Shown: piece by piece, positions 13,777-61,424 of the stretch
Numbering within the stretch: position 1 is the first letter of the stretch
How the letters are laid out: the number at the start of each line of letters is the position of its first letter
DNA from: Diospyros lotus
Taxonomy: Eukaryota > Streptophyta > Magnoliopsida > Ericales > Ebenaceae
NCBI RefSeq assembly: GCF_014633365.1
Contig: NC_068352.1
Coordinates: 27,003,310-27,067,309, forward strand
DNA: 64,000 nucleotides
Reading direction: 5' to 3'
Made by a program: the position numbers and the translations under genes
The notes under the pieces: model-generated
What the model saw: the letters and a program-made list of their open reading frames with translations, nothing else
What the model was told of the DNA's origin: nothing
Databases searched by the model: none

Positions 13777-16425
13777 ATGGCTGCATCTTTTTCTGTCCCT
13801 TCAATGGTGAGACCCCAATTTCTTTCCCTAGCTAGCTCTCTCTGTACGTGCATTTAGAGAATAGCATAATCTCTATATCGCGTTATTAAATTGGTGTGGT
13901 GTCAAATATCGATTATCTCTTACCAAGCACATAAATTCTAAATATATGGCAATACATAATTTTTGTTATGTGTTTATATTCTATATGCATGGTGACACGT
14001 GACTTGGAAGTCATAGTTACATTAAATATTTCTTCACGTTACTATGCAGATTTTAGTTGTTCTTTATTTATTCATTTATCAGTAACTATATATATTTAGC
14101 TAGTTATTATAGACTATGTTATTGGTACTTTTTGGGTTACATAATACATCATAAATGATAAAAATATTTCTCGCGTCCCCACTATCTTAGGTGAAGGGTA
14201 TTTTAGACATTTTAATTATATTACGTAACACAAGGTGTAAGTCATGATGAACAAATAGAATTTTCCCTTATTATATGCCTAAGTTTTTTTTATTTAAATT
14301 TGTTTGATATTTATCCATCTATCCAGTACAAATACCTGTATTGATATGCTTAACAGAAAAAGGGTCGAGAAGACAGATGAAATAGTAACGTTATAGTAAA
14401 TATAAAGTTAATACTAAATTTAAAAAATGTTTACTTTCTTATCCCTTTTAGCTGAAAAAAAAAAATTACGGTAGGAGGCAGTAGAATATATGTTGATGAG
14501 CAATACAACATAGAATGTAACAAAGATTTGTAGGTAGGCTAGCTCTTAAAGATTGGAGGTTGTGTGGACAGATTCTGGAGGAAGAAGGGAGGTTTGAAGC
14601 AGAGGTTGCAGAGGTGCAAGCCTGGTGGAACTCCGAGAGGTTCAAGCTCATCCGCCGGCCATATTCAGCCGGAGATGTGGTGGCTCTCCGCGGCAACCTC
14701 CGGCAAAGCTATGCCTCCAATGAGCTAGCTAAGAAGCTATGGAGGACTCTCAAGACACACCAAGCCAATGGCACTGCCTCTAGGACCTTTGGTGCTCTAG
14801 ACCCTGTCCAAGTCACCATGATGGCCAAGCACTTGGACACCATCTATGTCTCCGGCTGGCAGTGCTCTTCCACCCACACCACCACTAACGAGCCCGGCCC
14901 TGACCTCGCCGACTACCCTTATGACACCGTCCCAAACAAGGTCCAGCAACTCTTCTTCGCGCAGCAGTACCATGACAGGAAGCAGAGGGAGGATCGGATG
15001 AACATGGGTCGAGAAGAGAGGGCTCGAACCCCTTATGTCGACTACTTGAAGCCCATCATTGCTGATGGTGACTCTGGCTTTGGCGGTGCCACTGCCACGG
15101 TCAAGCTCTGCAAGCTGTTTGTGGAGCGCGGGGCTGCTGGAGTCCACATCGAGGACCAGTCCTCCATGACCAAGAAATGTGGCCACATGGCCGGGAAAGT
15201 CCTTGTCGCGGTCAGTGAACACATCAATAGGCTGGTGGCTGCTAGGCTGCAGTTTGATATCATGGGGGTTGAGACAGTCCTGGTGGCTAGAACTGATGCA
15301 GTTGCTGCCACTTTGATCCAAACCAATGTTGACACCAGGGATCACCAATTCATTTTAGGCTGCACTAATCCAAGCCTCAGGGGCAAGAGTTTAGCCACCA
15401 TTCTTAGTGAAGCAATGGCCGGTGGCAATGCAGGGGCCGAGCTTCAAGCCATTGAGGATGGTTGGTTGTCAACAGCGCGGCTGAAAACATTTTCAGACTG
15501 CGTTGTTGATGCCATCAAGAACTTGAACATTAGCCAGGCTGAGAAGAGGCAGCGACTGAGCGAGTGGACGACTCTTTCAAGCTTCGACAAGTGTCTATCC
15601 AATGAGCAGGGCAGGGAGATTGCTGAGAGACTAGGGGTTCACAATCTCTTCTGGGACTGGGATTTGCCGAGGACAAGAGAAGGGTTCTACAGGTTCAGAG
15701 GCTCAGTAGAGGCGGCCATTGTTCGGGGCTGGGCTTTTACTCCCCATGCCGACCTTATCTGGATGGAGACTTCAAGCGCTGACTTGGTTGAGTGCACCAA
15801 ATTTGCACAAGGGGTGAAGTCAATGCAGCCCGACATCATGTTGGCTTATAACCTGTCTCCATCCTTCAACTGGGATGCATCACAGATGAACGATGAACAG
15901 ATGAGGGATTTCATCCCCAAGATTGCCAAACTAGGCTACTGCTGGCAGTTCATTACCCTGGCTGGCTTCCATGCCGATGCCCTCATCACAGACACGTTCG
16001 CTAAGGACTTTGCAAGGAGGGGAATGCTGGCTTATGTGGAGAAAATTCAAAGAGAGGAGAAGAAGCATGGAGTTGACACACTTGCCCACCAGAAATGGTC
16101 CGGTGCCAATTACTATGACAGGGTCCTTAGAACTGTCCAGGGAGGCATCACCTCCACTGCAGCCATGGGAAAAGGCAAGTTATTAATTTCGGCAACTATG
16201 AACTGATTATCCAGTTGAATGCATTTCTAATTGCTCCTTTTCGCTAACTATGAACCCAATTATCAATCTGGGTTTAATTCATGAAGGTAGGTTAGTATAC
16301 TGAATAAAGTTGGAAATTGTTCTTGCTCAGGAGTGACTGAGGAACAGTTCAAGGAGACCTGGACTAGGCCAGGAGCCACGCATCTGGGCGATGGCACCGT
16401 TGTGATTGCCAAGTCAAGGATATAG
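13777..16425 (+). CDS. ICL: Isocitrate lyase, glyoxysomal
   Basis: Isocitrate lyase cleaves isocitrate to glyoxylate and succinate in the glyoxylate cycle, which turns seed oil into sugar. The exons are 13777-13806, 14572-16174 and 16331-16425 (1728 nt, 575 aa, normal plant length). The catalytic signature KKCGHM is present, as are [23 protein letters not shown] and [10 protein letters not shown]. The C-terminus is AKSRI, a PTS1-type peroxisomal signal in which the usual final Met or Leu is Ile. The last intron uses a GC donor, AAAG|GCAAGT, with acceptor TGCTCAG. Reading it as GT-AG instead brings an immediate stop. The main exon also stays open a few codons upstream of its acceptor (TTG at 14560), but family alignment places the start in exon 1. 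The promoter and exon 1 exist in two tandem copies. Confidence 0.95.
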
Positions 16426-18146: not shown

Positions 18147-18308
18147 TCACTTCTTCCACGGTTTCAGAACAGATAGTACGATAACGAGTGCAATAAGCAG
18201 GAGCAAGGTAATGGCGATCATCATGCATTTTCTTGATCTCTTTTGCAAGCTCTTGGCCGTCTGGAGGGCGTCTGTGCCCATGTGCACGTGTTCCACTGCG
18301 TTTGTTAC
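18147..18308 (-). CDS. distal alternative terminal exon of SYP132/SYP13II syntaxin
   Basis: Read on the minus strand, an acceptor CTTTTACAG precedes a phase-0 exon of 54 codons that ends in TGA. It begins VTNAVEHVHMGTDALQTAKS and continues with a basic LQKRSRK patch, a membrane segment of about 18 hydrophobic residues and a KPWKK tail. It is colinear with the proximal last exon ([20 protein letters not shown], then the anchor, ending HPWKSS) but clearly diverged in the SNARE tail, anchor and tip. Joined to exon 12 by a 2.8 kb intron it would give a 305-aa isoform. In Medicago and other mycorrhizal dicots the orthologous gene makes two isoforms by alternative terminal exons, and the non-standard one acts at the symbiotic interface membrane. 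Its position downstream of the normal end fits that arrangement. Expression is inferred. Confidence 0.85.
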   Translation of the reverse strand, partial: VTNAVEHVHMGTDALQTAKSLQKRSRKCMMIAITLLLLIALVIVLSVLKPWKK

Positions 18309-18310
18309 CT

Positions 18311-20803
18311 GTAAAAGAAGCCAAGAGCAGGTACTGGTTGGTGGTAATTGATCACTGAAATTCATCCTTTGCTAATGCTACTCACAACAATGTCAATGTC
18401 ATCTATTAATGTGAATCTGACTTTATACAAGTTAGGTACTTGCCAATGGAGATCATTGCCATTAACAAATAACAATGTTCTCATTCTTCATTCAGCTTCT
18501 CAACTTATCTGAACAAGATGGGGCTTATGGGGCATTTCATGGAGCTTGGACTTGTTTGTAACAACAATTACAAGTCTTAATTTTGCTAAATAGTGTGGAC
18601 TTTATGCATTTTTGTTGGAATGTGTGAGATTTTTCTAATATGATTTTTTGCAGTCCAATTCTAGGAATTATGGTGAAGAATTCTAGTGAATGTGTGTATG
18701 TTCTTAAATCTAGGAACGTTGTCTAAATATCCTTAAATTTAGAAATGTTGTCTAAGTAAAGAAATGTTTTAGTTATTGTGTTAGGTAGATCTTGTCAATC
18801 AGCTATCATATATAACAGTCTTTATTAATGAAAAATTTGAAAAAAAAAGTGTATTGAATTTTGTTATCTCAATATTTTTAAAATTTTTGTCTTTTGTAAG
18901 TTGTGCTTGTTGTGTGTGAGATAAGATTCTAACAATTTTAGTATCAAAAGAAAATAAATCATAAAAAAATTGCTCTCGCATAGTAATGTTGCATAAATCT
19001 AGCAATGGGAATTACTAAAGTTGGTCTTTTATCGATCATTATGTATTTGTTTTCTTTCTCTTTTACTTTTTATGTCTTGTTCTTTGTTCATTTATATCTT
19101 TCTCTCAACTCCCTTATAAATGAAGAAAAGGAAGAAATCAAAGATAAACATAGAAATTAGAAACTTGGTGATCGTATGGGTGCAAAGCCCTATTAAAGCC
19201 TGAACTATCTCTATTCTGCCCTAAGTGTGTTGGGCCACAGCCCAAGATAATGGTGGACTCAAAGGCGTTCGATTGTGTAGAGGGAGGATGCTTATCGGCC
19301 TAAACGGGAAATGGACAAATGGTGAGAAACAAAACCCATGAGTCATGACAATCAAAATAAGACCCACTCAAAATTCACTATAAAAATTACAAGCACTTAG
19401 CAAATAATAATTGATATGATAGCAGCCCAAATGCATGAAAAGACCACATTGCCCTTGAGTGTTGATGCAGGGGCATTGTAGTCTTTTTAAGTGTTCCGAT
19501 TTCCGTGAGTGTTAAATGGAAGGGTAATGTAGTCATTTAACGCATTTACCCCGCCTACCCGGTCAAAGACTCCGATTTCATTATCTTGCTATGGTAGAGA
19601 ATTGGGCCTCTTATAAAAAAAAATATTTAATTTGATACAACTATAACACCTCATGACGTCGAATTTATTTTTAGAATTTTGGGCTTTAAGAGATTTAAAA
19701 CATTTATTTTTTTTTTCAATTTTTGAATGCCTCTTATCATTTTCTAAAACAGAAGTATTTTGAAATTAATTTTTAAAAAATAGCTTGTTGCACCGTTGAG
19801 ATTATTTAACTTCAAACTCAAAAACAGAGACTTCAAAGCCTTACCGCTGTTCTGTTAGAAGAAACATTTTCAATTTAATTAAATAATAATAAATTTAATT
19901 TTAATATTAAAAAATATTTTCTAAAAGCAAATGAAGGTTTACTAAATCCTATTTGGGTTACTATTACATGTCTAGTAAATCAGTTTAAATATTATGTCAA
20001 AATACAGAAATAATGAAAAACAATAATTACTAAAAATACAAAAACCACAGACAAAATCACTCTTAGATTAATCGTATGGCATGGCGGGCCCAAAATATGG
20101 CAAATAGTGTGAGGCCAATGGCTATCATTTTTACAATTTTGCCCCCTTCGCGAAGGACCAAATGATAGAGACATGGAAATGGGAGAGGCAAGAAGACACT
20201 TTTACCCCTGCACCCCATCCCCAATTTCGACATCTCTATCATTATTTTTTTATATAAAAACTTATGGATGATGGGCTCACACTTTTGACCCATTTTCTGG
20301 CCGTCGTATCAGCATTCAATTTTGTCATAACAATAACCAATAAATAGTTTAAAATATAAATAAATATAAAGCTCAAAACATTTGATTCCGACCCTAAATT
20401 AAGGCACAAAGCTCCCCCCCTTTGCATCATCAGACTCGTAAATGTGAAATAACATATAAAAATGCCAGTAACAATGATTACATCAGACCAAATGTGTAGC
20501 AAATCAAGCACCCCATCCCCCCCCCCCCCCACCCCCCCAAAGGAAAAAAAAAGGCAAAACACCATATAATATCTTAGTCCCAATTTCTCAACACATCCCT
20601 GTTACCAAACTGAACTTTACACTAAAAATTAAAAAGGGGAAATTAAAAAAAAAAGGAAAAAAGAAGAATTGCAATGCACATAATAAGCACACCATGCAAA
20701 GGCTAAAACTAATGATGCTTTCTCAATCAACTTAAGACCATGAAAATGCCACATTGGCAACGCAGATGAGAGCAACCAGAGGTGAAAAAGACTAAGAGCA
20801 CCC
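18311..20803. other. spacer between proximal and distal SYP132 terminal exons
   Basis: This 2.5 kb would be 3' UTR and flank for the proximal isoform and intron for the distal one. It is AT-rich and shows no coding exon. A run of 14 C lies at 20517-20530, and there is a moderately complex repeat-like patch at 19170-19600. The minus-strand open frames at 20063-20583 are interrupted, low-complexity and unrecognised. Confidence 0.5.
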
Positions 20804-23800
20804 TTAGCTACTCTTCCAAGGATGGAGGACGCCTAAGACTATGACTGCTACTATTATTAAGAGAATTATAATGGCAATGCACATCCATTTTCTGGAATTC
20901 TTCTGAAGTTTCTTTGCAGTCTGAAGTGCAGTTGTACCTGATTGGACGTGGTCGACTGCACTCGAAACCTGACACAAGCCTTCAGTTAAGACGCATGCAG
21001 GCGACGCAAAACAGTAGTATCCTTTCACAACATCCATTAGCAGGGTAGGGAGAGAGTGGGTGGAGAAGCATACCTGGGTCTCAATGTTATCTAGTATGTC
21101 TCCCTGAGCCTCAACTAAGACCGCCATGTCAAGGTAAATCTGAAATGAAATATCTTGTTAAGCAGGTTGGTGGGTTTGGAGGGCGAAGGATGGGTTTTGG
21201 TTCGGGTATACCTGATGTAAGTCCAGAAGCTTTTTCTCTAATTCCTTCACGGCATCATGCCTCTCCTGAATTTCTTCCAGAGTGTTCATTACCTGCAACC
21301 ATGTCCGTGCATATTACAGGTAGACAAAAATGCCAAGTTCCTCCATGTCATTTTTTCTGGTATTGGAGTTTACTACTTTTAATCACTCTACATTCATCAA
21401 AACTCACAAGGCTATAAAATCCTATACATTATCGAGGACTCTAGAACATTACAATTAAAAAAGAAAAAAAGGTAAAGAGTTCTATTTCTGTTCAACCACT
21501 TGAATGTAGCAAGTATTCTAGATTTGAACTTTGTAAGTCAAACTGGTTAATGAATATATTCATGTTTCACAAATTTCCAGGTTTTTTGGTTGTTTTCCAC
21601 TCTGCTTACCTTGTCATTGTAATTGACTGTCACGAGTTCTTTTGTGTGGCAATTTGGGCTAGAAATGTTTGCATGTAACAAAATAAACCATCCTTCTCTT
21701 AAAAGAATATATTACTGGTACAAAACTAGGTGGTGGAAAGTGATGGATGCTTGCCATGAGGAAATCCTGTTATCTGAATCAAATTTACTGTAAGGGAGCA
21801 AATTCATGGTTCACTAATCATGTAAAAAGAGGAATATCTTGTCTAAACATGTTATTGTCATCCTATGTTGACTACCAGTTGATTTGAGTGGACTACAGCC
21901 TTCAACCTTCCAAGAGGTGAAGGTAAATCATTTGGCAATAGGCAAAAAAAAAAAAAGATCATGTTTTAACCATCATAAACAATAGGAGTAATGAAGAAAA
22001 ATTGCTTCTCCAGCCATTTGCTGGTCTCGCATAATAATGGCTACGTAAAGGCCACGCAACAAACATCCAATTGACATCTATCTCATGGGAAAAGTGGAAA
22101 ATGACCAATTATTTTTCTGGTGTAGAGCTTAGTTTAAATAATTAAATATAAAGAAAAATTACACTTGCTGGACCACCTAGAGATTTTTATCATGAATAAT
22201 ATTTAGATTAATACAGGCAGCTCGAGAGAAAACAAAATATGATAAGAAGTTAATTAATCAAAATGGAAAATCAAGAATCACTAATGCAGTGAAAACATAG
22301 ATTAATAAATCAAATGTTAAGGCAAAAATTCTACTTGATGGACAGAATAATTTTTATCCTGTGCAATTAAACGAGATGACAGGTTGAAAAAGAAAAAGAA
22401 AAAGAAAAAGAAGAGTGTGTGTGTTTGCGCGAAAGCATTGATAAGAGAATGTGTGCTTGCAAGTGTGCAAGAGTAAGTGTGCATGCAAACACAGAAAAAA
22501 AAAGGGATAGCCAAAGGTATATGGAGGTTTTATAAATCAAGTTGCTTGGAGAATCCATAAAGCTTCATGGAAAACAAAAGTAAACAACTTTAGCTTCTCA
22601 TAGACCTAAAACACATATATTTGGCTAATACATTGTACAAAGTTCAACTAATGAAGGTATCAGAATAGATCCAAAAATCAGATGAAGATAAAATGCAAAA
22701 TCTCTTCCCTGACATGAACTCAAATGTAAAAGTGTCCAGAGTCTTAAAACCCTTAAGAATGAGGAAATGGGAAACTAGGCTCTTTACTATTCTGTTCTTA
22801 TCCCACCCTGAGTGCATCTAACTGAAAAGGAATAACTTTTGGGATCTAATAGTTAGCGAAAGGACATACTTAAAACTCCTTGTCTTTTGCACATAGAAGG
22901 AAATAGTTCTGATTAGACGTGCCCACAGGAGAAAGCAAATGCAATATGAGAAATGCAGAACAAATCAAAGTACCTGTCCTCTTCCCATTTCTTGCATAGC
23001 TTTCTGAAAGATTTGTTCACTGTTTCCAGTTTCTATCAGGTTGTCAATCGTCTAACACAGATATCAAATTGCCAGTTAAAATAACATAAATAGTTCCATG
23101 TAAATATTGCAACCCTGGTACTAATTTCAGCATTTTGGCTCACCTCTTCATCTGGTCTGGTTCCCGTGACTGCTCTCAATCATGAAAATTTAACACACAG
23201 AATGGAAGATAATGAAAAAAAAAAAAACTAGATCAGCCAGCAATAAGCAAGAAAATGGCACACTGAAGCCATCAGTTTGAGTTTTAAATTTCTAATTTTT
23301 GTTAACATGCAGAGATCAATATTTATACCGGTTATGACCCTTCTCTCCACCACCTCACGATATTCATCTTGAATCCTCTGCCTAAGAGTCTGGTACAAGG
23401 AAATTTGATGAGTGTATGAAGAGAAACTGACGACAAAATGAACATTTATCCAAATATACCTGAAATTCAATCATTAGGTCCCTGAACTTTTTGGTCAAGG
23501 CACTGCAGTTGAAGAAAATAAATAAGATTCTAAAACAACAAAAGTTCAATAATCTGAGACTAGATCATATACTGCAGAAGAAACAAACTTTGTCATATTT
23601 GTCCTTGATCGATCAACAGCTGATCCCTTTCCACATCCAGGCTTCTGTCGATTGGCTAAATTCTAAGGGTGAAGAAGATGAAATCAGTATATGCTGTTAT
23701 ACCAGGGTAACTACAATCAGATGCGTTGATGGATAGGGAATGAATAATACATCTTTACTTATTGCTTCAAGTCTTGTTTTGACATTCCGTGCAATCTTTC

Positions 23801-26800
23801 CGACTTCATCAACATCTTTTTCCATATGCTTTTTGATTGCTGAAATAGAGAAATCAGTACTCTCAGAGCTGTCACACAGAACTACAGTAAATTTGAGCAG
23901 TTGGCTAATTAAGCCTAAAATAAAATCTGTTTATTTATTTATTTTTTTGCATATCACCACAGGACAAGAAGAATTTAGTAGTTAATGTGATTGGTCCAAC
24001 AGCATTTAAGTTGCTCTAGACTGATTTACTCAGCATGTGGCTGATGCACAGAACATCTGCTGTGAGATACACATTCATGATAATCAATTTGCATCCAGAA
24101 GATTTAATGTAAGGGTGTGTTTGATTGGCATGGAAAACATGGAAAAGAAAATATTTTCCAGCCAAATTCCAACTTTGGGTGTTTGATTGGAAACTTTTTC
24201 CATGGAATTTGTTTTCCACCCAAGTACAAAAATGGCACATTTTCCTCAAAATCAAGGAAAATCAATTCTTGGGGGGGGGGGGGGGGATGTTGGTTTTGAT
24301 TTTCCTTGGAAGTTGGAATTTATTTTCTTTTCCACCTTGTGCAATCAAACACACCCTAAGGGTGAAAAGGACAAAGATAACCTTTCATGGCAGATGCTTT
24401 TGTAACAGACTTTGACTCCTCATTTGCATCCTGCCAAAAAAAGCCTCATATGTTGAGTCTGAAAAGCAGAAGCGTGAATGCTAGATATAAAATACTCATC
24501 CAGTATCACTTGGTTCTAGTGTAAGAATAAATGAGCATATAATCCATGCTAGCTCTTACTTTTATAAACCTCAATTGTAAAAATTGTGACTTGCACTACA
24601 ATTACTGCAGTACGGAAGATTGAGAATATCAAATTCAGGTTTATTAACGTCTGCTAGACATCGAAAATCTTATTCTAATTCATGCTACCCCAAAACAAGA
24701 AGACATAATAATGCACCAAGAAAGTAAATGATAAATCCACCGATAAAGTCATATGGAACCCAGAGAAAATAAGAAGAAAGATATCCATCCATCTTTACTT
24801 CCCAATTCTGCTTTCACTTCCTTTCTCTTTTCATTTAATTTTTCCCCTGCCACAAAATAAATTAAAAATGTAACCCACATTCCAACCTGTAGTTGGTTTT
24901 TGAACACCCCCCCCCCCCCCCCCCCACAAGATGAGCCTAGCCTTCAGAATTCATTCAAAATTATGAGATAAGATAACAGATAATTCTATGACAGCTCCAT
25001 TAGGAATTGGTTTCAATGTTTATATATTTCTTATAGTTTCTCCTTTTGATTCCAGTAAATTAACTCCAAAGAAGTTTTATAAAATTATAAAAGAAGTCCA
25101 CAAATTCAGATGGATTAGGTATAATCTTATTTCGGACAGATTAGTTACTTTAGTTTGTTAATCATTAAAAGTAGTAATAAGTGCCATTGCTACTCTCTTT
25201 TATACTCAACTCCTGCTTTTCTTCTTTGTAACTCTCCCCTTAAATCTCCATATATATATATATATAATTAACGTCATTTTCCTTGGTAGCCGTCAAATAT
25301 GATATGGTTTCCCATTACTTCTACTCCCTCTTGTCTTGTTACAAGCATCAAGTTCCAAGAGTATTGAGTGGCTAGAATAGCACTTATAACCAGTTAAGTT
25401 CCTGAAAACTAGCAAAATTTCAAGAACTCAAGGGCCATGTTTCAAATGCTTCCTATTTCAGCCAAGTGATAAGTACTAGTTACGGCTATATTAAATTATA
25501 AAGGCACAGAAACAGATCAAGCAAAACCAAAACAACTGATTGCTTGATGAACTCTTCTTAATTGCCCCAATCCACATAAATACAAAAATAAAATAATTCA
25601 TTGGCATATCCCAAAAACCACAACTTTACCAGGGGACATTTCTTTATGTCAGGATGTAACATTACAAGGAGAAGAATCCAGTTCATACCTTAAGCTTCTG
25701 AAGTAACATGGAGACCTTATCTACTTGCTTATTAACATCTTGTATCTACAAAATAGTTAAAGAAACAACAAATAAGTTAGCAAAAGTGGCCAAATTTAGA
25801 AATAATATGAGAAAAGTAAACAGAAAAGAAGATCCTTAGTAACTTTAGCTTTCATGTGGCAGCTTTATGGTAATGATAGCTTGGTTGGGTTTCAGGCAGG
25901 CTGGACCCATTTATCAGAGACTTCTATTCGCATTGTAATCTCCTGAGTAATCAAATGCATCGCGGGTGTGTGTGTTGGGTTGGGGGAGGAGGAGGAGGAG
26001 GAGGAGGGGGGGGGGGGGGGGGGGGGGCGCTGGGCTATTGGTCATTTTTACATGGCTTGCAACCCCCTTGGTGCCTTTGTTGACAGATCAAGAAAAGGAA
26101 GAAAACATTTCAACAGATAAGAGCTCACAAAGGAAATGATTAATCAACAAATTTTTCAGTTGTATAGCAATCTGACTTCCTTCAAGTTATCCACAAGGCA
26201 CCAAATACCATAATACAGCATCATGAGATGGTGTCTTCATTTCATGAGGATTTATAACATTAAACCTGGTTGGGATTATACCTGCTTATTGAAAGCTTCC
26301 ATTCCCAAATCAGAATTACTCCTAGGGACCCGAGTTCCCATCTCAATATCTGGTTCTCTAGATGGCTGATCTCTGGCATCCCCAGCAAATGAATCCTGAA
26401 ACAGATTAATATAAGCTTAAGCATGTGAGACACTTACTTAAGAAGGGGAAAATTAGTCAAATATTTATATTAGAAATGTTCAAAAATTGTAGAATAAAAT
26501 TTAAAAGTTCACCATTAAAGGATGAGTTTGACACTTAAGGAGCTCAAATTCTAGATGGAATATTTACATCAGAGTACTAATGAATCGTTTACTTCCTTTT
26601 TCAAGGGCTACTCTAGGTGGGGGATGGAGGGGCAATGGATTTGGGGCAAAAGGAGTAGGAGGAGGGCTGGCGAGCACATTCCCCTGCCCCCATCCCTAGT
26701 TAGAGGTACTAAACTCATGAACACTTGAACTAGAATAAAATATTTTACAGGGACTCTAGTGAATGTGACTACACAAACCAATTCTATCCAAAGAAAATAA

Positions 26801-27428
26801 ATTGGGAAAACATCTAAATGTCTGATTATTGCCGAATGGCCTCCAGATCTTGGAAAACAGCATCCCCCTAAAACCAATTATATTCATTTCCATTCAAGTA
26901 GATTAAAACTCATCTCTTTTTCTTCACAAGTGGAAATGAAGGAACCAGAAAAGCAGATCGAAGTCAATTTTACATACCCAACTATATGGAAATCTGAGAA
27001 ATTCCAAAGATTCCAAAACACTTCAAAATAAATTAATTCGATAGGACTAAATGACCTACTGATGATCACTATTTCCAATCACAAAAACAGCAAACGTGAG
27101 ACTCAAAAACCCTATTTTCCTAAAAAAATGCCCCTTATTGGCACATGGGTATTCTCAAAAGGCGCTCAAATGGCAAAAATATCACCCAAGCACTGATCGA
27201 CAAATACTGAAGAACAATTATCAACCTTAGGGGCACCAAATTGAACCTGGGTAGTACCAATCCTATTTCTGGGTATTACAAAATCTGAACCAAACGAGCA
27301 AATTCACCTCTCAAACCATTCAATAACGTCGCTAATCAATCACACAGATCAGATGTCAATACAAGAGGTAGAAACAAAAACAGTTAACAATTAACAGGAA
27401 TCAAGTTTACCGTGAGTAAGTCGTTCAT
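20804..27428 (-). CDS. SYP132: Plasma-membrane Qa-SNARE syntaxin SYP132/SYP13II
   Basis: SYP132 is a Qa-SNARE that drives vesicle fusion at the plasma membrane. The minus-strand exons are 27411-27428, 26282-26395, 25689-25745, 24382-24430, 23751-23839, 23589-23662, 23460-23502, 23329-23389, 23144-23169, 22974-23051, 21212-21292, 21074-21139 and 20804-20968 (921 nt, 306 aa, the family length). All introns are GT-AG and phases agree. The N-terminus is [20 protein letters not shown]. The Habc bundle is at about residues 40-165 and the SNARE motif at about 204-266, with the zero-layer Gln at 242 inside VEAQGD. The C-terminal anchor is at about 281-300 and the tail is HPWKSS. Exon 9 is only 26 nt. 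Intron 4 holds a Tourist MITE, and the introns carry long G or C runs. A second terminal exon lies downstream at 18147-18308. The 5' third has been copied to 52.8-57.4 kb. Confidence 0.96.
24113..24356. mobile_element. Tourist-like MITE in SYP132 intron 4
   Basis: It is flanked by TAA at 24110-24112 and 24357-24359. The terminal repeats are GGGTGTGTTTGATTGG and CAATCAAACACACCC, near-perfect over 15 bases. The interior is a long imperfect palindrome of TTTTCCATGG-type words and is interrupted by a run of 16 G at 24271-24286. It ends only about 25 bp from the 5' splice site of intron 4 (donor at 24380-24381 on the minus strand). Confidence 0.85.
24907..24925. repeat. poly-C run of 19 in SYP132 intron 3
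   Basis: Nineteen consecutive C lie in otherwise AT-rich intron sequence, which means G on the transcribed sense of this minus-strand gene. Intron 2 holds another run, 22 G at 26006-26027, preceded by (GGA)n. Confidence 0.85.
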
Positions 27429-41759: not shown

Positions 41760-43432
41760 GAAAACAAACTAATAATTGGGCCCAGGTTTTGTGTGTTTTT
41801 TAACACACAAGTTTCAACCTTACGCACTAAATTGAGGGAATCCATTGCTGTTGGCGTGCATCCATTGATGGAGTTTAGAGGGGGGCTCGTTAAGTTTGTG
41901 TTTGAGTTGGCTTATGGGTCCAATTAAGATCATATTTTCCAACCCTTAAAAGATAAAAATTAAAAAAAAAAAAGAAGGAAATACCTAACTCTTTATTTGT
42001 TTATTTTTGACTTGAACCTGCCAAATATAAAGGATGGCTGCACTTAGACAAACTCAAGCCAACCCACGGACTAGGCTAACACAATTAATAGAATATTAAC
42101 CCAACAATTAGACCTAATTAGCATCACAGCAACAAACTAAACCTCAAAACCTAAAACATATATAAAAGTTGAGTAACGCCATAAGAAGCAAATATATTCA
42201 GTTTTGGTGGTTCACCATTTGTATAATACAAGTCGCAATATTTAAATTAGAAACTCGTTCAAATTTTAATATTCTTTTTTAATAATTTAATTTGTGGATT
42301 ACCTAATTAAATCTTCACACTCCACCTTGCACAAAATCAAACCCTAAGCTAGAGCCCATCGCCCCTACTTCAATCCTGGACGGGGTAGGTCATTCATGGG
42401 CTGGGCCCGCTGGGCCTAACAATCATCATTAAATTACAGGCTGTTTGGAACCTCAAAATGATTAGCCATATATATAATGCCAAGTTGAGTCCAAAAACAA
42501 AAGCTCATAAGTGTTTTTTTTTTCAAATTAAAATTAAATTAATCATTAATTGTATTCAATTTAAGTAATTGCAAATTCTCTTGCACAATAAGAATAAATT
42601 TATTTTACTATTTAAAGTTTCTTATTTTGTGATACATTTTATTAGTTGTTTGCTTTGAAATTTTTTCTAAGCAATTAAAATATTCTTTTATTTTACCAAG
42701 AGATAGGCTAAGTCGCGAATTTAGCTGCATATTTTTTTCAGAATTAAAAATAATTTTTATTTTTTATGTCTATGATGAACAATATATGTCTCATTGAATA
42801 AAGAACGTATTACATGTACTGACAGGATGACAAGCCCCATAATCGAATCAAATTTTATCCAATGATAAAGTCCAATAGAATTTCATAGATCGAACTTCAT
42901 CATCGATTATCAAGGAGTCACGAATGAGAAAAGGCTAAACTTCATGAACCCTGATTATAAAGCCCGATTGGAATTGGAAGAAGCCCAATCGATCGAGCTT
43001 CATAGATCGAATGAAGTTCGATTTGGTCGTCAGGCTTATAAATGAACCCCACAGAGGCAGCAACGACAAATTAGGTGAGGACATTTTTGTCATTTGGTAT
43101 TTTCGTTCATTCTCTCGGTAATCCAATTGTTTATACAAGTAACCATTTTTATTGAATAAATGATTTTTTTTTTTTACTTATAGAACAAAAAAAAGAATAA
43201 ATGGTTTCGGTCTTTGATGAAAGGACGTGTCAATTGGATAAAAGATGTGTCCATTGGAAGATTAAAGGGTGTGTAGATTGGCTGCATGGACCCAATGGTT
43301 GCATTCGTTGGTTACTCTTTGCAACGGTTCAACAAAACGTTGCTAGCATGCAGACACATATATATTCAAAGCTTCCTACAACTTCAATGGCGGTTGGGCT
43401 TCCCTCATAACACCATACTCATTAATCAACAA
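41760..43432. other. intergenic region with LTR-like fragment
   Basis: No gene is supported up to the F-box start. From about 42820 to 43140 the sequence is GC-richer and has repeated CATAGATCGAA(C/T) and GAAGTTCGATT words, ending with CTTATAAATGAACC. This resembles the U3/R part of a plant LTR. No paired LTR or target duplication was found. It may supply the F-box gene's promoter. Confidence 0.4.
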
Positions 43433-45174
43433 ATGGAAAGGAAGCAAGAATGTGGAGATGTCCTCTCCCGGTTGCCAGACTCGCTTCTCGTTGCCATCAT
43501 CTCCTTCCTGCCATTCAAAGAAGCCGCAAGAACTTCTGTCTTGTCCAAGCGTTGTCGATACATTTGGCACGAGACCAAGAACATAGAGTTTAACCAGGCA
43601 TTCTTTGGTAAACCAAATGAGAAATTCAATGAGACCCAACGAAGCGCTTTCATCAATTTTTCCTTACAGTGGATTGATCGCTATCGCAATTGCACCGTAG
43701 ACAGATTTCGTCTGGCATTTGCCAACCCCCGAGGAGAGGAATTTCAACAATTGATTCAATTTGCCATGGCTCACAAAGCCAAGTGCCTGGATCTGGATTT
43801 CTCGGATCCAACTTGGGACGAAGAAAGCATGGAAAATCACGTTGCTTCATTTGAATTGCCATCGCCGGACGTTTATCAGCACAGGGAGTTGGAAGAGCTC
43901 AGGTTGTTTTCCTGTAACTTTAGGGTTCTTGAATTCAAATGCTTCAAAGCACTCAAGAGCCTGTCTTTGGGATGGACAAAACTGTCTTCTTCTTTTCTCA
44001 CAACCTTGTGCTTAAACTGTAAGTTCCTGGAGAGTCTGAGTTTGAAGAAGTGTTGGGATTTGAAATATCTCGACATCTCTGGGTCGAAGTTGAGGACATT
44101 GGTGATCGACAGGTGCCTGGATCTTGACAACGGTGTCGTGATTGACGCTCCAAAATTGCAGTTCTTTAAGTACTCTGGGCGCTTGGTCATTTTTATGATC
44201 GAATACTTGAATGCCATGGTAGAGGCCGATCTTAACTTTGGGTTTGAGTTTGAGTTTGGTGAATTTGGTGACATTATTTGCGACCTCCTCAGAGATCTTT
44301 GGAGCATTAGGGTTCTTACTGTGTGCAGTTACATTCTTCAAGTATCATCTCTTCTTCTTCTTCTTCTTCTTCTTCTTCTTCTTCTCCTTCTTCTACAATT
44401 GCACGCTTTATTTCTTGATGTTATCTTAGGGTTTGAGTTTAATGAGATTAATTTTGATTTTGATTTGAGATTATTATTAAGTTTATCTCTTTTATAATCC
44501 CTTATAAATGCATAAACAGACCTGCAAATGATTGTATCCATCGCGATTAACTTCTTGTTTGTTGATAGGTAATTCCGAGTGCCGAAGAGTACCCATTACT
44601 TAGGCCCCCGCTCGAGGGCATCCGCGAGTTGACAATGAAGACAACATTGCATGCTCACGAGTTTCATGGAATATCATTCTTCCTTAACAGTTGCCCCCTC
44701 CTGGAGCGTCTCACCATCGACATCGGCAGTCGTCCGACAACCATATTTTCGGTTAGTGCGCCCAATAATTTTTGAAACCCTACCCTAAACAAATTAACCA
44801 TCCATTGCTTAATATTAACATGCACACACACACACACACACACATCTATATGTTGTGTCGTTTAGGAACGTGGAACAACGCTTGATCTGAATGAACATGA
44901 ATTCTTAAGCAAATACAAGTATATGATAGTGTACGGATGCTTGAGAACAAGTTTGAGGGTGATAGAGATAAAAGGGTTCAAAGGAGGGCCAAGCGAGGTG
45001 GCGGCGATTAAGTATTTTCTCAGGTTTGGGCTTGTATTGGAGGCGTTGTTCATCTGTGTCTCGAAAGAAAAGGGAGCCGACGGCGTGGACATGGAGCCAC
45101 AGTATCGTGAGAATGCAAGAAAGTTGCTGCAGTTTCCAACAGCTTCGAAGTCACTTGCTATATTTGTTGGTTGA
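43433..45174 (+). CDS. F-box/FBD/LRR-type protein
   Basis: F-box proteins are substrate receptors of SCF ubiquitin ligases. The FBD subfamily is large, fast-evolving and mostly uncharacterised. The exons are 43433-44341, 44569-44751 and 44866-45174 (1401 nt, 466 aa), all phase 0. The N-terminal F-box is at about residues 10-47 (LSRLPDSLLVAIISFLPFKE, then SVLSKRCRYIW). It is followed by irregular leucine-rich repeats (LEELRLFSCNF, LKSLSLGWTKL, LESLSLKKCWDL, LRTLVIDRCLDL). The C-terminal FBD-like region is GPSEVAAIKYFLRFGLVLEA. Intron 1 contains (CTT)n and stays open past the donor, which gives a misleading read-through frame to 44497. The frame also extends upstream to an ATG at 43286. The chosen Met precedes the F-box by the usual short distance. 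Confidence 0.85.
44349..44393. repeat. (CTT)n microsatellite in F-box intron 1
   Basis: A run of CTT units with a single CTC interruption starts 7 bases after the intron 1 donor GTATCA. Translated in frame it gives poly-Leu, so intron retention would add a hydrophobic tail. Confidence 0.85.
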
Positions 45175-52814: not shown

Positions 52815-55125
52815 ATCGCTAACGCTTTCTCTTTCTTTCACTCTAGACTTCTTAGGTCCATCAGGATGAACGACGTACTGACGGTAAACCTGACTCCTCT
52901 CTCTATCTTGTTGATTGTAACTGTTATTGTTTGTACCCTCTGCTGTATTGACATCTGATCTTATCGATTTATTAGCAACATAATCGAATGCTTTTAAGAG
53001 GTGAACTTGTTTGTATGGTTCAGATTCTGTAGTACTTAATTTTAGTTTGGTGCTTTGAAAATTGATAATTGTTTTTCACTATTTATTGATCAGCTGTGGT
53101 TCACCTCTAGAGAATACCCATTTGTAAACAAAAGGGCATTTTGAAAGAAAATAGGGTTTTTGAGTCTTGTGTTATCTGTTTTCGTGATTGGAAGGGTGAT
53201 TATCAGTGGGTCATTTAGTAATATCGAATTCTTAAAGTCGATGTGTTTTGAGTCTTTGGACCTTTTGTCCTTTGGTTTTCAAGTAGTTGGAATCCTATGT
53301 TATCTGCATTTTGTTCCTTGATCTTTCAACTGCGAAGGAAATGAGATGAGTTGTAATAATACTTGATTGTAAATGAATATAATTGGTGTTATGGGAAAGT
53401 TGTTTTCCGTGATTTGGACTCATCCAGAAATAATCAGGCATTTAAGATGTCTTCTCAACTTATTTTCTTTGGATAGAATTGATTTGTGTAGCTACACTAT
53501 CTGGAGTCCCTGTGTAATATTTATGGTAGTTTAGATATCCATGATTTTAGTACCTGTAGCTCTAGGGTCTGGAATGAGGGACTGCATGTGCCTGCACCCC
53601 CCCTCCTGCTCCCTTTGTCCCTCCATTTCCCACCCGGAATAATTATTTGACTAATGGTCCCATTCTTAACTAAGTGTCTCACATAATTTGTTTCAGGATT
53701 CCTTTGTTACTGATGCCAAAGATCAGCCTTCTAGAGAACCTGATACGAGTAATTCTGATTTGGGAATGGAAGCATCAGTAATCAGGTATGATCCCAACCA
53801 AGTTTTAATGTTAGAAATCCTCGTGAAATGGAGACAGGGTCTCATGATGCTGTGTTGGAGTACTCTGTGTTGAGGATATGTAAGTGGTTTGGATGAAACT
53901 TGAAGGAGAGGGGTTTCTTGCTTGTCAACTGCAGAATTTTGTCAATTAATCATTTGCTCCCAGACCTCTTATCGGCTGAAATGTTTCCCTTTTTTCTTCA
54001 TCTGTAAACAAAGACTCCATGGGGGTTGCATGCCATGTACAAAAAGATCAATACCCACAAAAAAATTGCCAACTCTATGCATCTGATTACTCAAGAGACT
54101 ACAATACAATAGAAGTCTCTGATAAATGGGTCCATCCTACCTGAAATCCAACCAAAAGGGGAACTTAAGCTTCATGATGAGCACTTGTGCATCTAGGGGG
54201 GAAAAAAAATCTGTTCTGTTTCCATAAAGCAGCCACATGAAAGCTAAAGTTACTAAGGATATTCTTTTCTATTTAGTTTTCTCATATTCTTTCTAAATTT
54301 GGCTACTTTTGCTAACATATTTGTTGTTTCCTTAACTATTTTGTAGATACAAGATGTTAATACACAAGTAGGTATAGCTCTCCGTCTTACTTCACAAGCG
54401 TAAGGTGTGAACTGGCCTCTTCTTTTGTAATGTTGCTGCCTGATGTTAAGAAATTTCTCTGGTAAGGTTGTAGTTTCTGAGATATGCTAATGGTTTTTAT
54501 TTATTTATTTGTTTATGTGATGTGGGGGGATTAAGAAGAGCACATGGATGGTGGTTGTAGTTAATCGAGCAATCAGTTTTTGGTTTTCCTTGACCATTAT
54601 AATTTGACATAGCCATAACTAGACTTATCACTCAGGTGAAGTAGGGCACATTTGAAACATGGCCATCGAGTTCTTGAAATTTCATTAGTTGTTGGGAACT
54701 TAACTGGTCATAACTCATAAGTGCTATTCTAGCTACTCAATGCTATTGTAACCTGATTCTGATAGCAAGCAAAAGTAATAGGAAACCATATCATATATGA
54801 TTCGTGTCTACCAGGGAAACTGATGTTAAGTATATTCATATATGGAGATTTTAAGGGGAAAATTATGAAAAATAAAAACAAGAATTGAATATAAAAAAGA
54901 GTGGCAATAGCGCTCATTAGTACTTCTTTTAATGCTTGACAAACCGAACTAACTAATCTGTAAAGTAAGATTATACCAAATCCATCTGAATACGTGGACT
55001 TCTTTTCTAGTTTCATGTAACTTCTTTGGAGGTAAGTTGCCAGAATCAAAAGGAGAAACTACAAGAAATATAGAAACATTGAAATCAACTCCTTATGGAG
55101 TGAGCTGTAGCCACATGCTTGTACA
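52815..55125 (+). pseudogene. truncated SYP132 5' copy 1
   Basis: This is a copy of the leader, exons 1-3 and introns up to mid-intron 3 of SYP132, inverted relative to the real gene. Exon 1 is 52866-52883 (MNDVLT, donor GTAAAC). Exon 2 is 53697-53785, 25 nt shorter than the parent, having lost the codons around IEMGTRVPR and shifted frame. Exon 3 is 54347-54404. The SNARE, most of the Habc bundle and the membrane anchor are absent. After exon 3, the intron sequence still matches parent intron 3 (parent 24990-25680). Spliced, it would stop within about ten codons of exon 3. Confidence 0.85.
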
Positions 55126-55164
55126 GCTCCTATCTTATTAGTTCCATGAGCTCAACATTTCTCC

Positions 55165-57430
55165 AAACGGCATCACCATTTCGTTCTTTTTCTCCCACTC
55201 TAAACTTGTTATTTGTTCCATCAGGATGAACAATATACTGACAGTAAGCTTGATTTTTCCCTGTCTTGTTAATTGTAACTGTTATTGTTTGTACCTCTCG
55301 ACTCTCATATTGGCATCTGATTTTATTGATTGGTTACCAACATAATCTAAAAATTTTAAGAGGTGAACTGTCTCGTTCGGTTCAGATTAAGTAATACTCA
55401 GTTTTAACTTGATGCTTTGAAGGTTGGCAATTGTTTCTTTGCTATTTATTGATCAGTGTGTTGGTGATATTTTTTTTTCCATTTGATCACCTTTAGAGAG
55501 TGACCATGTGTAAATAAAGGGCATTTTGAAAGAAAATAGGATTTTTGGGTCTCATGTTATCTGTTTTTGTGATTGGGAAGAGTGATCATCAATAGGTCAT
55601 TTAGAATTATCGAATTCTTTAAGTTGAAGTGTATTGAGTCTGGACTTTTTTTCCTTTGCTTTCCAAATAGTTGGAATCTTATGTTACCTGCTCATTGTTC
55701 CTCGATTTTTCTCACTTCTGAAGGAAAGGAGATGAGTTGTAATATGCTAAAAGTGAATACAATTGGTTTTATGGGAATGCTATTTTCCCTGATTTGGAGG
55801 TCATTCAGAAATAATCAGACATTTAAGATGTTTTCCCAATTTGTTCTCTTTGGACATATAATTGATTTTTGTAGCTACACTCTCTAGGGCCCCTGAATAA
55901 TATTTATGCTAGTTTAAATGTCCATGATTTTAGTCCTCTAGATTTGACTAATGCTCCCCTTCTCAACTAAGTGTCTCACATGCTTAAGCTTATATTAAAT
56001 TGTTTAAGGATTCCATTGTTGCTGACGCCAAAGATCAGGCTTCCAGAGAACCAGATATTGACATGGGCACCTGGATCCCTAGGAGTAATTCTGATTTGGG
56101 AATGGAACCTTCCAATAATCAGGTATAATCCCAACCCCAAATTTTAATGTTAGAAATCCTCATGAAATGGAGGCACCATCTTGTGATGCTGTGTTGGAGT
56201 ACTCTGTGTTGTGAATAAGTAAGTGGCTTGGATGAAACTTGAAGGAGGGGTGTTGCTGCTCAACTGGAAAATTTTGTTGACTAATTATTTGCTTCCTGAC
56301 CTCTTATCTGTTGATTTGTTTCCCTTTTTCTTTTGATCTGTAAACAAAGGCGCCAAGGGGCTTGCAATCCATGTATAAAAAGATCAATGCCCACAAACAT
56401 TGTCAACTCTATGCATCTAATTACTCAAGAGACTACAATACGGCAGAAGTCTCTGATAAATGAGCACATCATGCCTGAAACCCAGCCAAGAGGGGAATTT
56501 AAGCTTCATGACCAACACTTATGTGTCTAGGGAAAAAAAAAAACTTCTGTTCCATTCCATAAAGCAGCCACATGAAAGCTAAATTTACTGAGGATATTCT
56601 TCTCTGTTAGGTTTCTCATTTTTTTTTCTAAATTTGGCTACTTTTGCTAAATCATTTGTTGTTCCATTAACTATTTTGTAGATACAAGTTGTTAATACAC
56701 AAGTAGGTATAACTCTCGATGTTACTTCAGAAGCTTAAGGTATGAACTGGCCTCTTCTCCTTTTAATGCTGCTGCTTGATGATAAGAAATTTCCCCAGGT
56801 AAGGTTGTAATATGCCAATGAATTTTGTTTTATTATTTTTTTAAATTTATTTATGTGATGTGGGGGATTAAAAAGAGTACATGGGTGGTGGTTGTAATTA
56901 ATCAAGCAATCAGTTCTTGGTTCTCCTTGACTGTTATAACTTGACATAACCATAACTAGACTTATCACTTGGGTGAAATAGGATGCATTTGAAACATGGC
57001 CCTTAAGTTCTTGAAATTTCATTAGTTGTTGGGAACTTAACTGGTTATAAGTGCTATTCTAGCCACTCAATGCTGTTGGAATATGATTCTGATAGTAAGC
57101 AGAAGTCATAGGAAACCATATCATATATGATTGATGGCTACCAAGGAAAGTGACGGTAAGTTTATTTTTGTATGGAGATTTAAGGGCAGAATTACAAAGA
57201 AGAAAAACAAGAGTTGAACGTTAAAAAGAGTAGCAGTAGCACTCATTACTATTACCTTTAATGCTGTACAAACCAAAGCAACTAATCTGTAAAGATTATG
57301 TGTGGACTTCTTTCTAGTTTTATATAACTTCTTTGGAGGTAAGTTGCCAGAATCAAAAGGAGAAACTACAAGAAATAAGGAAACATCGAAACCAACTCCT
57401 TATGGAGTGAGCTGTAGTCACATGCTTGTA
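55165..57430 (+). pseudogene. truncated SYP132 5' copy 2, short frame still open
   Basis: This is the second unit of a 2.3 kb tandem pair. Exon 1 is 55226-55243 (MNNILT, donor GTAAGC). Exon 2 is 56009-56122, of full parental length and in frame (ends SNNQ). Exon 3 is 56682-56739. A one-base insertion in exon 3, shared with copy 1, leads to TAA. If spliced like the parent it would encode 62 aa, a syntaxin N-peptide without SNARE or anchor. The homology ends near 57430, 135 bp before the copia element. Whether this is a gene or an inert relic cannot be told. Confidence 0.85.
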
Positions 57431-57565
57431 AGGCTTTTAACTTGATGCTTTATTCATAGAATCATCTGTTGAAATTTTTCTGTCTCATAATGTTGAATGA
57501 ATTCTGAAGGAGAGGCTTGTCTTGGGGTCCAAAATGGACTATGGATTAGAATTTGGGTAACTTTT

Positions 57566-57899
57566 AGTTGGTGGAAGAAGATAAAGCTAGGGCTGGCTCG
57601 TGCTAAAGAATAAAACCGAGAGATACCAGATAATCTCATCCATATCTTCTTATCTCTTGTTGATAATAATCTGTTTCTATTTGTAGTTAATTATCTGTTT
57701 AAGTTTGATTATTTAATTTGCTTATGTTGTAATCTAGAGCTATAAATTAGGAGTTATCTAAGAGCTGTAAGTTAGGAGATATTTTAGGAGTTAGAGTTGA
57801 AGTTGAATTAGTAATGAGCTAGGAGACTTCTGTATTTATACTCAAGGAATAATCTGAAATCAATGAGGTAGAATTCATTCAATCTACCTAATTTTATCA
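57566..57899 (+). repeat. 5' LTR of copia element
   Basis: It matches the 3' LTR over its full length. The first base is A where the 3' LTR has T, so the canonical TG start is mutated. It ends in ATCA. Confidence 0.92.
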
Positions 57900-57912
57900 T
57901 GGTATCAGAGCC
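57900..57912 (+). other. primer-binding site, initiator tRNA-Met
   Basis: TGGTATCAGAGCC directly abuts the 5' LTR and is complementary to the 3' end of plant initiator tRNA-Met, the usual copia primer. Confidence 0.9.
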
Positions 57913-57968
57913 TTGCTCGTGGGATATTTGATTAACAAGAGTTCTTCTTGTAAGGGAACTCTTATACA

Positions 57969-58400
57969 ATGGCGGAAAAACCTCAAACCAGCGAGGTCTC
58001 TGCATCAAGTCCTCCTCCGGCATCCAGTAGCCGAGTTCTAGCAGCAAGGAATATTCAAGCTCCAGCGGCAGCGACAGGTTTTGATGGATCCTCCCTACAA
58101 ATCACTTTCCATAAGTTGAATGGAACCAACTTTTGCGAGTGGTTCCAATCGGTTATGCTTGTGATAAAAGGCAAATGCAAGGTTGGATATTTGACTGGTG
58201 AAACAATGCGGCCCAGTATAGAATCTGCAGAATATGGATTATGGGAAGCCAAGAATGCCATTGTCATGGCATGGCTTGTGAATTCTATGGAACCAAAGGT
58301 TGGGACAGACTTATCTCTTTTATAAGACTGCTAGTGAAATTTGGAGTGCTGTCCAAGAGATCTATTCAGATCTTGCAAATACTGCTCAGTGTTTCTAAGT
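57969..58400 (+). pseudogene. copia gag N-terminal remnant
   Basis: It begins MAEKPQTSEVSA and includes the copia gag hallmark LNGTNFCEWFQSV, then AKNAIVMAWLVNSM. A stop at 58323-58325 reflects a frameshift. The adjacent frame continues with TASEIWSAVQEIYSD before homology is lost. The CCHC knuckle and the protease are missing. Confidence 0.85.
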
Positions 58401-58463
58401 TAGATCCACTATATGATCCACCAAGGAAGGTAACAATTCTGTAACTGAGTATTACAATATCTT

Positions 58464-58973
58464 GATGATTATCTAAATGAGCATGGTATTGTCCACCAAA
58501 ATTCTTGTCCATATAACCCCCAATATAATGGTATAGCCGAGAGAAAGAACCGGCACCTACTTGAGACAGCTCGAGCACTTATGTTCACTCAATCGGTTCC
58601 AAATTCATTTTGGGGAGAGGCGGTACTTACACCAGCTTATCTAATCAATCGCCTTCCCTCAATGCCCCTTCAATTCAAAACACCTTTGAGTGTATTTCTA
58701 GAGTCTTTTCCTCATTATACCAGAGCCGTAAATCCACTTCCTCCTAAAGTATTTGGGTGTACCTCTTTCGTACATCACAACCAGCTAAACCAGTCCAAAG
58801 TTGATCCAAAAGCACTTAAGTGTGTATTTGTTGGCTATTCCCCAACTCAACAAGGATATAAATGTTATCATCCTCCTACCAGAAAATTTATTGTGTCATG
58901 CGATGTTTCCTTCTTGAAAAATAAATCCTTTTTTGCTGACACCAACTTAAACAGTGTACTAGTAGATACTTGA
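58464..58973 (+). pseudogene. copia integrase C-terminal remnant
   Basis: In one frame it reads HGIVHQNSCPYNPQYNGIAE, RKNRHLLETARALM and FWGEAVLTPAYLINRLPS, then the KVFGCTSFVH and CVFVGYSPTQQGYKCY blocks typical of the copia integrase C-terminal half. The N-terminal zinc finger and the D,D part of the catalytic triad are absent because of the internal deletion. The frame ends at a TGA at 58971-58973, before the RT. Confidence 0.88.
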
Positions 58974-59483
58974 ACTTCAATTATATCAGTTCCTCTCAAC
59001 CTATCCATCTCCAGGTCAGTTCCTGAATCCCATCCAAGTTCAGTCCCAGCCACTGAAATTGATTAGCCTAACCATAATCACTATTCAAGCTCAAAATCCA
59101 TCTCTCAATTCCTAAATTAGCAAGAGGGGGAGAAAGAGGAAACCGAGATTCAACAAGGTGGTGCAAGCTTGCACAAACCTCCTCTTAAGGTATATTCAAG
59201 AAGACCACCAGCACTTCAGCTAACCAATCCTTCCAACCGGGAGGTAAGTCCAAATCAACAACTTACTGACATCGTTATTGCATAACAGTGTGAAGATGAT
59301 CTAGGTATTCCCACTGCCTTAAGAAAAGGGAGAAGGACATGTACCAAGCATTCTATCACAAATTTCCTCGGGTATTCTAAACTATCTCCTACTTATAAGG
59401 CATTTACCCTCAGCCTTGATAATGTTGTTATCCCAAGGAATATCTATCAAGCACTGCAGGATAGTAGATGGAGAGAAGCAGTT

Positions 59484-60692
59484 ATGGAAGAAATGGCAGC
59501 CTTGGAGAAAATAGGTACATGGAGAATTGTGGATCTTCCTAAAGGAAAGAAGGCTGTTTGGAGCAAGTGGGTGTTCACATTAAAGTATAATTCAGATGGA
59601 AGCCTTGAGAGATACAAGGCAAGGCTTGTAGCTCAAGGGTTCACTCAAACCCAAACTTTTGCCCCTGTGGCAAAACTGAATTCAATCCGAGTATTGTTGT
59701 CCTTAGCAGTAAATCTGGACCGGAAGTTGCATCAATTTGACATTAAAAATGCCTTCTTGAATGGAGAATTGGAGGAGGAAATCTATATGCATATACCACT
59801 CGGATTTGAGACCAATCACACAAGAAGTAAAGTATGCAAGTTAGAGAAATCTTTATATGGGCTAAAGCAATCACCTCGAGCTTGGTTCAAGAGATTTAGC
59901 AACATATTATACAAGTTGGGATATACTCAAGGACAAGCAGACCACACTTTGTTTACTAAGATTGGGAGAGATGGGAAGAGAACAATTCTAATTGTTTATG
60001 TAGATGATATCATCATCACCAGAGACAAACTTCAAGAAATTCAGCAACTAAAACAGCAGCTCAAACAGACATTTAAAGTAAAAGAGCTAGGGGAACTGCG
60101 GTACTTCCTTGGATTGGAAGTAGCAAGAAGCAAGGAGGGGATTTTTGTATCGCAAAGGAAATATACTCTAGACTTGTTAAAGGAAACAGGCAAGTTAGGA
60201 TGTAAACCAACAAGTACACCATTTGAGCCTAACTGGAAGAATAGAGAAGGAGAAGAAGACAATCAAGTAGACAAAGGCATGTATCCGCGGCTGGTTGGCA
60301 AACTCATTTACTTATCTCACACGAGACCCGACATTACATACGCTGTAAGTATTGTTAGTAAATTCATGCATCTTCCAACTAAAAGACACTTGGAAGCAGC
60401 CTATCACATCCTTAGATACCTAAAGGGAACACCAGGCAAATGGCTGCTATTCAAAAAAAGCCAAGACAGAGGAATAGTTGGTTATGCAGATTCAGATTGG
60501 GCAGGCGTAGTGGAAGATAGTAAATCAACATCTGGATATTGTAGAAGGCTATGGGGTAATTTGGTGACTTGGAGAAGCAAGAAACAAAAAATAGTAGCTC
60601 ACAACAGTGCTGAAGCTGAGTATCGAGCTATTACTCAGGCAATCTGTGAAATAATATGGGTAGAAAGGCTGATGGGAGATCTTTCTATTTAA
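59484..60692 (+). pseudogene. copia reverse transcriptase and RNase H
   Basis: A 402-codon open stretch carries RVT_2 motifs: KWVFTLKYNSDGSLERYKAR, QFDIKNAFLNGEL, KSLYGLKQSPRAWF, the catalytic YVDDI, and LGELRYFLGLE. RNase H follows with YADSDWAG and AEAEYRA. A short in-frame deletion lies just before FAPVAKLN. After a TAA at 60690-60692 the RNase H end continues (LYSDSKLAI, MKHVRIDRYF, HADILTKAM), interrupted by TAG codons, to about 60950. It is largely intact but not a complete polyprotein. Confidence 0.92.
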
Positions 60693-60945
60693 GTATCGTC
60701 TCCTAAGTTACTCTATAGTGATAGTAAATTAGCTATCAATATAGTCAATAACCCTGTTCAACATGATAGAATGAAACACGTCCGAATTGATCGATACTTC
60801 GTGAAATAGGAAATGGAAGAAAGAGAAATCAAGTTAACCTATATACCCACTACCGATCAGCATGCTGATATTCTGACTAAAGCAATGTAGAAACAGAGTT
60901 TTGAATCAATTCGAAGAAAGCTGGGAATATTTGATATATATTTCT

Positions 60946-60960
60946 CAGCTTGAGAGGGGG
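60946..60960 (+). other. polypurine tract
   Basis: GAGAGGGGG immediately precedes the 3' LTR, as expected for plus-strand priming. Confidence 0.75.
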
Positions 60961-61295
60961 TGTTGGTGGAAGAAGATAAAGCTAGGGCTGGCTAGTGCTA
61001 TAGAATAAAACCGAGAGATACCAAATAATCTCATCCATATCTTCTTATCTCTTATTGATAATAATCTGTTTCTATTTGTAGTTAATTATCTGTTTAAGTT
61101 TGATTATTTAATTTGCTTATGTTATAATCTAGAGTTATAAATTAGGAGTTATCTAAGAGCTATAAGTTAGGAGATATTTTAGGAGTTAAGAGTTGAAGTT
61201 GAATTAGTAATGAGCTAGGAGACTTGTGTATTTATACTCAAGGAATAATCTGAAATCAATGAGGTAGAATTCATTCAATCTACCTAATTTTATCA
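60961..61295 (+). repeat. 3' LTR of copia element
   Basis: It starts TGTTGG and ends ATCA, keeping the canonical TG...CA ends, and is followed by the target duplication CTTTT. Confidence 0.93.
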
Positions 61296-61424
61296 CTTTT
61301 TAATTTATTTTGGGTGGGGGAAAAAATTAAAAGAGAGAGAAAGGAAGTGAGAGAGCAGGCTATCACTGGAGTCAGGAATTAGAAGATGGGTGGATACCTT
61401 TTTCCTTGTCCTTTTGGGTTCTAT

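Follow-up and report, generated by a model that had tools for sequence, protein, structure and literature searches.

The closest described system is SYP132 of Medicago truncatula, which yields two syntaxin isoforms: alpha (SYP13II alpha, also called SYP132A), the symbiotic form, and a second isoform named beta or SYP132C (PMC9158536, PMC7145992, PMC6063945). Medicago alpha is reported to be the dominant syntaxin of arbuscule-containing cells, where it is found on the peri-arbuscular membrane with a preference for functional arbuscule branches (PMC7145992). The original prediction for the locus studied here took from Medicago that there are two isoforms, one of them needed for symbiosis; the two isoforms and the symbiotic character of one stand, but the word "needed" does not. 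It rests on RNAi, whereas a stable Medicago line with the alpha exon deleted is reported to have normal arbuscules and symbiosomes together with an equivalent rise of beta, and beta is able to replace alpha at native levels (PMC7145992). Rice Ossyp132 mutants, affected in a gene with a single ending, likewise showed normal mycorrhiza unless a SYP13I gene was removed as well (PMC9158536). In pea, mycorrhizal and control roots did not differ significantly in their isoforms after correction (PMC7761762), and in red clover, reads for the alternative isoform were reported in nodulated roots only (PMC9655500). Such reports on isoform use in mycorrhiza are not uniform, and the alpha/beta distinction may be one of amount and turnover more than of exclusive function. 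Across dicots, an extra exon 14 is reported in all surveyed mycorrhizal species except Aquilegia, and dicot SYP13II is described as a chimera of two clades produced by unequal crossover (PMC9158536, citing Huisman et al. 2016 for the chimera). The same source counts AtSYP131 and AtSYP132 as SYP13I genes (PMC9158536).

The stretch of DNA analyzed here, referred to as the window, is 64,000 nucleotides long (C15:27003310-27067309 of the 630-Mb genome G000). A gene model rebuilt from the sequence places a complete SYP13II syntaxin gene with 12+2 exons on its minus strand, from 27428 to 18147 (Table 1), and these 12 common and 2 alternative exons fit the reported extra exon 14. The 12 core exons total 756 nt (252 codons) with no internal stops, and 11 of the 11 introns between them are GT-AG. 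They are followed by two terminal exons, both in frame, that would be mutually exclusive in a transcript. Exon 12 can be joined in phase 0 to the proximal exon across 105 bases of intron (acceptor GTGTCAG/G; 54 codons plus TAA; protein of 306 aa) or, again in phase 0, to the distal exon across 2765 bases (acceptor TTTACAG/G; 53 codons plus TGA; protein of 305 aa). The coordinates, phases, acceptors and stops originally predicted for two compatible terminal exons proved to be right, and the residues quoted for both tails, including VEHVHMGTDAL for the distal one, could be read exactly as given. The predicted isoforms diverge only in their C-terminal 53 or 54 residues, which comprise the last part of the SNARE helix, the membrane anchor and the tip; the regulatory domain and the bulk of the SNARE domain are common to both. 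Both predicted isoforms score above cut-off for Pfam Syntaxin (PF00804) and SNARE (PF05739), and the 19-residue hydrophobic stretch of the anchor has a mean hydropathy of 3.6 in the proximal and 3.2 in the distal isoform. A PDB search returned syntaxin-1A and others as relatives and nothing on plant isoforms, and an Rfam scan of the window at gathering cut-offs gave 0 matches.

Table 1. Exons of the SYP13II syntaxin gene, in window coordinates (a slash marks the splice boundary)
Feature	Position	Strand	Basis
Exon 1 (start codon, MNDLLT)	27411..27428	-	gene model
Exon 2	26282..26395	-	gene model
Exon 3	25689..25745	-	gene model
Exon 4	24382..24430	-	gene model
Exon 5	23751..23839	-	gene model
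Exon 6	23589..23662	-	gene model
Exon 7	23460..23502	-	gene model
Exon 8	23329..23389	-	gene model
Exon 9	23144..23169	-	gene model
Exon 10	22974..23051	-	gene model
Exon 11	21212..21292	-	gene model
Exon 12, last common exon, donor CAG/GTATGC serving both endings	21074..21139	-	gene model
Exon 13, proximal terminal exon, beta type: SNARE tail, anchor, tip HPWKSS, TAA included	20804..20968	-	gene model, tail tree, tail identities
Exon 14, distal terminal exon, alpha / SYP132A type, symbiosis-associated: SNARE tail, anchor, tip KPWKK, TGA included	18147..18308	-	gene model, legume tails, tail tree, identities

An open frame after an AG is by itself no evidence for an exon, because 18 of the 221 AG dinucleotides between 20803 and 17001, the interval that contains the distal exon, are followed by at least 50 open codons. 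What supports the distal exon beyond chance is homology to annotated tails: its product is 89% identical (47/53) to the tail of the annotated isoform X4 of Actinidia eriantha, and the proximal tail is 87% identical (47/54) to that of Actinidia chinensis. The A. eriantha syntaxin-132-like pair X3/X4 has bodies identical to each other and 90% identical to the window body; both isoforms are already annotated in that species, on contigs listed with equal length, and no difference in layout was seen at the protein level. The acceptor of the distal exon is 76% pyrimidine and that of the proximal exon 47%. We draw nothing on acceptor strength from this difference, as the acceptors of exons 9 and 11 are equally pyrimidine-poor (47% and 41%). 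In a poly(A) motif scan, the nearest AATAAA downstream of the proximal stop lies 1.1 kb off, although plant signals are degenerate. A short exon that lies 2.5 kb past the proximal stop might be a relic, intact by chance, whose splicing has been lost in this plant. However, conservation relative to Actinidia is even across the alpha tail (89%), the beta tail (87%) and the body (90-91%), and the distal exon keeps both its pyrimidine-rich acceptor and its stop, so we consider a relic unlikely.

We then compared the two endings with those of legumes. Medicago SYP132 belongs to the same orthogroup and carries the same two terminal exon types on one body, with identities to the window of 74% for the alpha tail, 87% for the beta tail and 79-80% for the body; it differs in coming from another plant order and in reading ATDHVKSGND (protein P0217) where the window alpha tail reads AVEHVHMGTD. 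The last exon of Medicago SYP132-alpha contains a published guide-RNA target whose translation is ATDHVKS (PMC7145992). This seven-residue peptide is closer to the proximal tail (AVDHVQS, 5/7) than to the distal one (AVEHVHM, 3/7), a first lead that made the proximal exon symbiotic and the distal one housekeeping. The legume tails overturned that lead. Among the retrieved legume proteins, ATDHV sits on distal-type RKCM tails in Neltuma, Acacia, Bauhinia, Phaseolus, Glycine and P0217, whereas the beta tails of Medicago, Lupinus and Bauhinia combine AVDHVQR with RKWMC, the Medicago protein being Chr2g0322801 (P0126). P0217, a database protein without a name, has a body 99.6% identical to that of Chr2g0322801 and a tail with ATDHVKSG and RKCMM; because of this body identity and the guide-RNA peptide, it is in all likelihood the Medicago alpha form. 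It also groups with the distal exon in the tail tree described below, and a symbiotic proximal exon is therefore very unlikely. With Medicago alpha known through P0217 and the guide peptide, the tails support homology of the distal exon to Medicago alpha and of the proximal exon to Medicago beta. The designation of the distal exon as the symbiotic form, at first drawn from its divergence and order, thereby gains a basis in homology.

To place body and tails separately, we used 86 hand-picked rows of 244 retrieved proteins plus the window, and added the plant's own SYP13I tail to the tail tree. The protein searches covered the best 120 of 2035, of 562 and of 2371 matches, the second being made with the proximal tail alone; in the first of these (best 120 of 2035), the distal tail gives the better score for 64 proteins and the proximal tail for 56. 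In the body tree (87 rows, 252 columns), the window falls within SYP13II, which is split from SYP13I with an SH-aLRT of 100 (73 versus 14 rows), the 14 SYP13I rows including Arabidopsis, Brassica, Protea, Vanilla and Acorus. SYP13I bodies are only 67-68% identical to the window body (P0184, P0156). Within SYP13II, the window groups with Rhododendron, Sarracenia and Actinidia (support 81-86), and its body is closest to Actinidia, Camellia and Davidia among the matches listed (90-91% identity); the plant probably belongs to Ericales. The loss in Arabidopsis, originally claimed for the distal form, is reported to be that of the whole SYP13II gene (PMC9158536), and the Arabidopsis rows lie in the SYP13I clade. 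Among the matches listed, no SYP13II rows from monocots, Amborella or Aquilegia, in which the ancestral ending would be visible, were recognized.

Tails were called alpha by their RKC motif, but the tail tree (89 rows) made no use of this label, and its 57 columns resolve few inner forks. One side holds 34 alpha-type tails, including the distal exon and P0217 (SH-aLRT 96); the other holds 40 SYP13II beta tails and 15 SYP13I tails, and the window's proximal exon, which matches the tail of A. lyrata SYP132 at 85% identity, lies here. Comparison with Medicago and Arabidopsis-type tails, as proposed in the original prediction, supports the distal exon as alpha and the proximal exon as beta. The same tree bears on the possibility, raised at the outset as one that phylogeny could reveal, that the distal exon arose from the proximal one by recent local duplication. 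The two exons are 2.5 kb apart, their proteins are 66% identical (35/53), and duplicated pieces of the same gene lie nearby; the tail tree nevertheless places the distal exon among alpha tails from other dicot orders, apart from the window's proximal exon, which makes a local duplicate extremely improbable.

Tail types were also counted. After 17 of the 244 proteins had been dropped (no clean body/tail boundary, or a tail outside 48-62 residues), alpha tails were present on 66 of the 179 SYP13II-type bodies among the remaining 227, each body being classed, by a crude rule, as SYP13II-type when its identity to the window body exceeded that to A. lyrata SYP132. They were present on 0 of the 48 SYP13I-type bodies, a count that is biased in that SYP13I rows were mainly found by the proximal-tail search. 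For 24 of the 66 alpha-tailed proteins there is a beta-tailed counterpart with body identity of 99% or more, in Actinidia, Ziziphus, Mangifera, Quercus, Erythranthe and others. Outside the window, exon order is visible only in gene models that span parts of both tails, such as Prunus P0014 and Arachis P0059. Because only the best 120 matches per search were taken, a missing alpha tail is no evidence of loss in a species. Lupinus species are legumes not known to be mycorrhizal, and their SYP13II-like proteins among the matches listed (P0001, P0137, P0138, P0218 and P0224) have beta tails in 5 of 5 cases, P0001 being a gene model in which the beta end is repeated; a possible loss of alpha in Lupinus, among these matches, is only a lead.

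The change of partner between the body and tail trees agrees with the published chimera idea, in a SYP13I sample that favors beta-like tails: the nearness of SYP13I to beta in the tail tree is biased because most SYP13I rows came from the proximal-tail search. A single case with less bias is the plant's own SYP13I gene (contig C7, ~829-833 kb), which came from a genome search: its tail matches the proximal tail at 80% and the distal tail at 55% identity, in the same direction as the tree. When the alpha tail was compared with the whole genome, there were five matches: its own exon (100%), the proximal exon (67%) and three others at 43-56%, namely, the SYP13I gene on C7 plus two weaker matches. 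This genome search found no second alpha-type exon beside the SYP13I copy on C7.

PT4 is described as an arbuscule-specific marker (PMC7145992). A gene at C1:46001492-46003192 is 75% and 73% identical to Medicago PT4 over its two parts and, over its whole length, 69% identical to PT4 and 55% to PHT1;1, both query sequences being approximate. With the same queries, three other loci (L022, L023 and L026) are 58-62% identical to PT4 and 77-81% to PHT1;1, L021 is intermediate (66% and 63%), and the other loci compared have partial or low matches to both. The PT4-like transporter lends modest support to the plant being an arbuscular mycorrhiza host, which it would favor without proving.

The surroundings of the gene contain further copies of its 5' part. 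Three tandem inverted partial copies lie at 52823-55100 (+) and 55149-62264 (+) of the window and 8.6-11.4 kb past the window end (C15, across L018 and L019). They span exons 1-3 and part of intron 3, in pieces that have 71-90% identity with the gene and 79-87% among themselves. Because nothing matches from exon 4 onward and, of exon 3, no more than a 9-residue piece of one copy was recovered, the copies are probably pseudogene fragments. The second fragment contains a retrotransposon at 57567-61295 (+) with an RVT_2 domain and ~334-base end repeats that are 97.3% identical. The three inverted copies and the gene region have 37, 57 and 42 exact 21-base words in common, possibly of low-complexity or intron origin; because of these words, antisense transcripts of the array could be imagined to yield small RNAs tuning SYP13II as a whole, an idea we regard as decidedly unlikely. 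Elsewhere in the window, a long frame at 14521-16206 (+) for isocitrate lyase (PF00463, 880 bits), the glyoxylate-cycle enzyme, faces the syntaxin gene tail to tail in a convergent arrangement, and a frame that matches F-box and LRR lies at 43277-44497 (+).

One such SYP13II locus was found in the genome, its anatomy and phase are intact, and each of its terminal exons is homologous to its Medicago counterpart. We conclude, with a probability of about 0.93, that the window gene is an SYP13II gene, orthologous to Medicago SYP132 (Chr2g0322801), that would give two Qa-SNARE isoforms by choice of the last exon. Cleavage and polyadenylation after the proximal exon would leave exon 12 joined to exon 13 and give beta, the general form; read-through of transcription would allow exon 13 to be skipped and exon 12 to be joined to exon 14, giving alpha. 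The choice would most likely be a competition between the proximal exon with its poly(A) site and read-through, as reported for Medicago. We infer that both isoforms are transcribed in this plant, that alternative polyadenylation would be the mechanism of choice here as well, and that alpha would be used at its arbuscules. The trees are consistent with the published picture in which the beta ending, unlike the body, is SYP13I-like, with SYP13I rows obtained mostly through beta-like tails. The locus adds another dicot in which the symbiosis-associated SYP13II ending is intact and, without surprise, confirms the published system.
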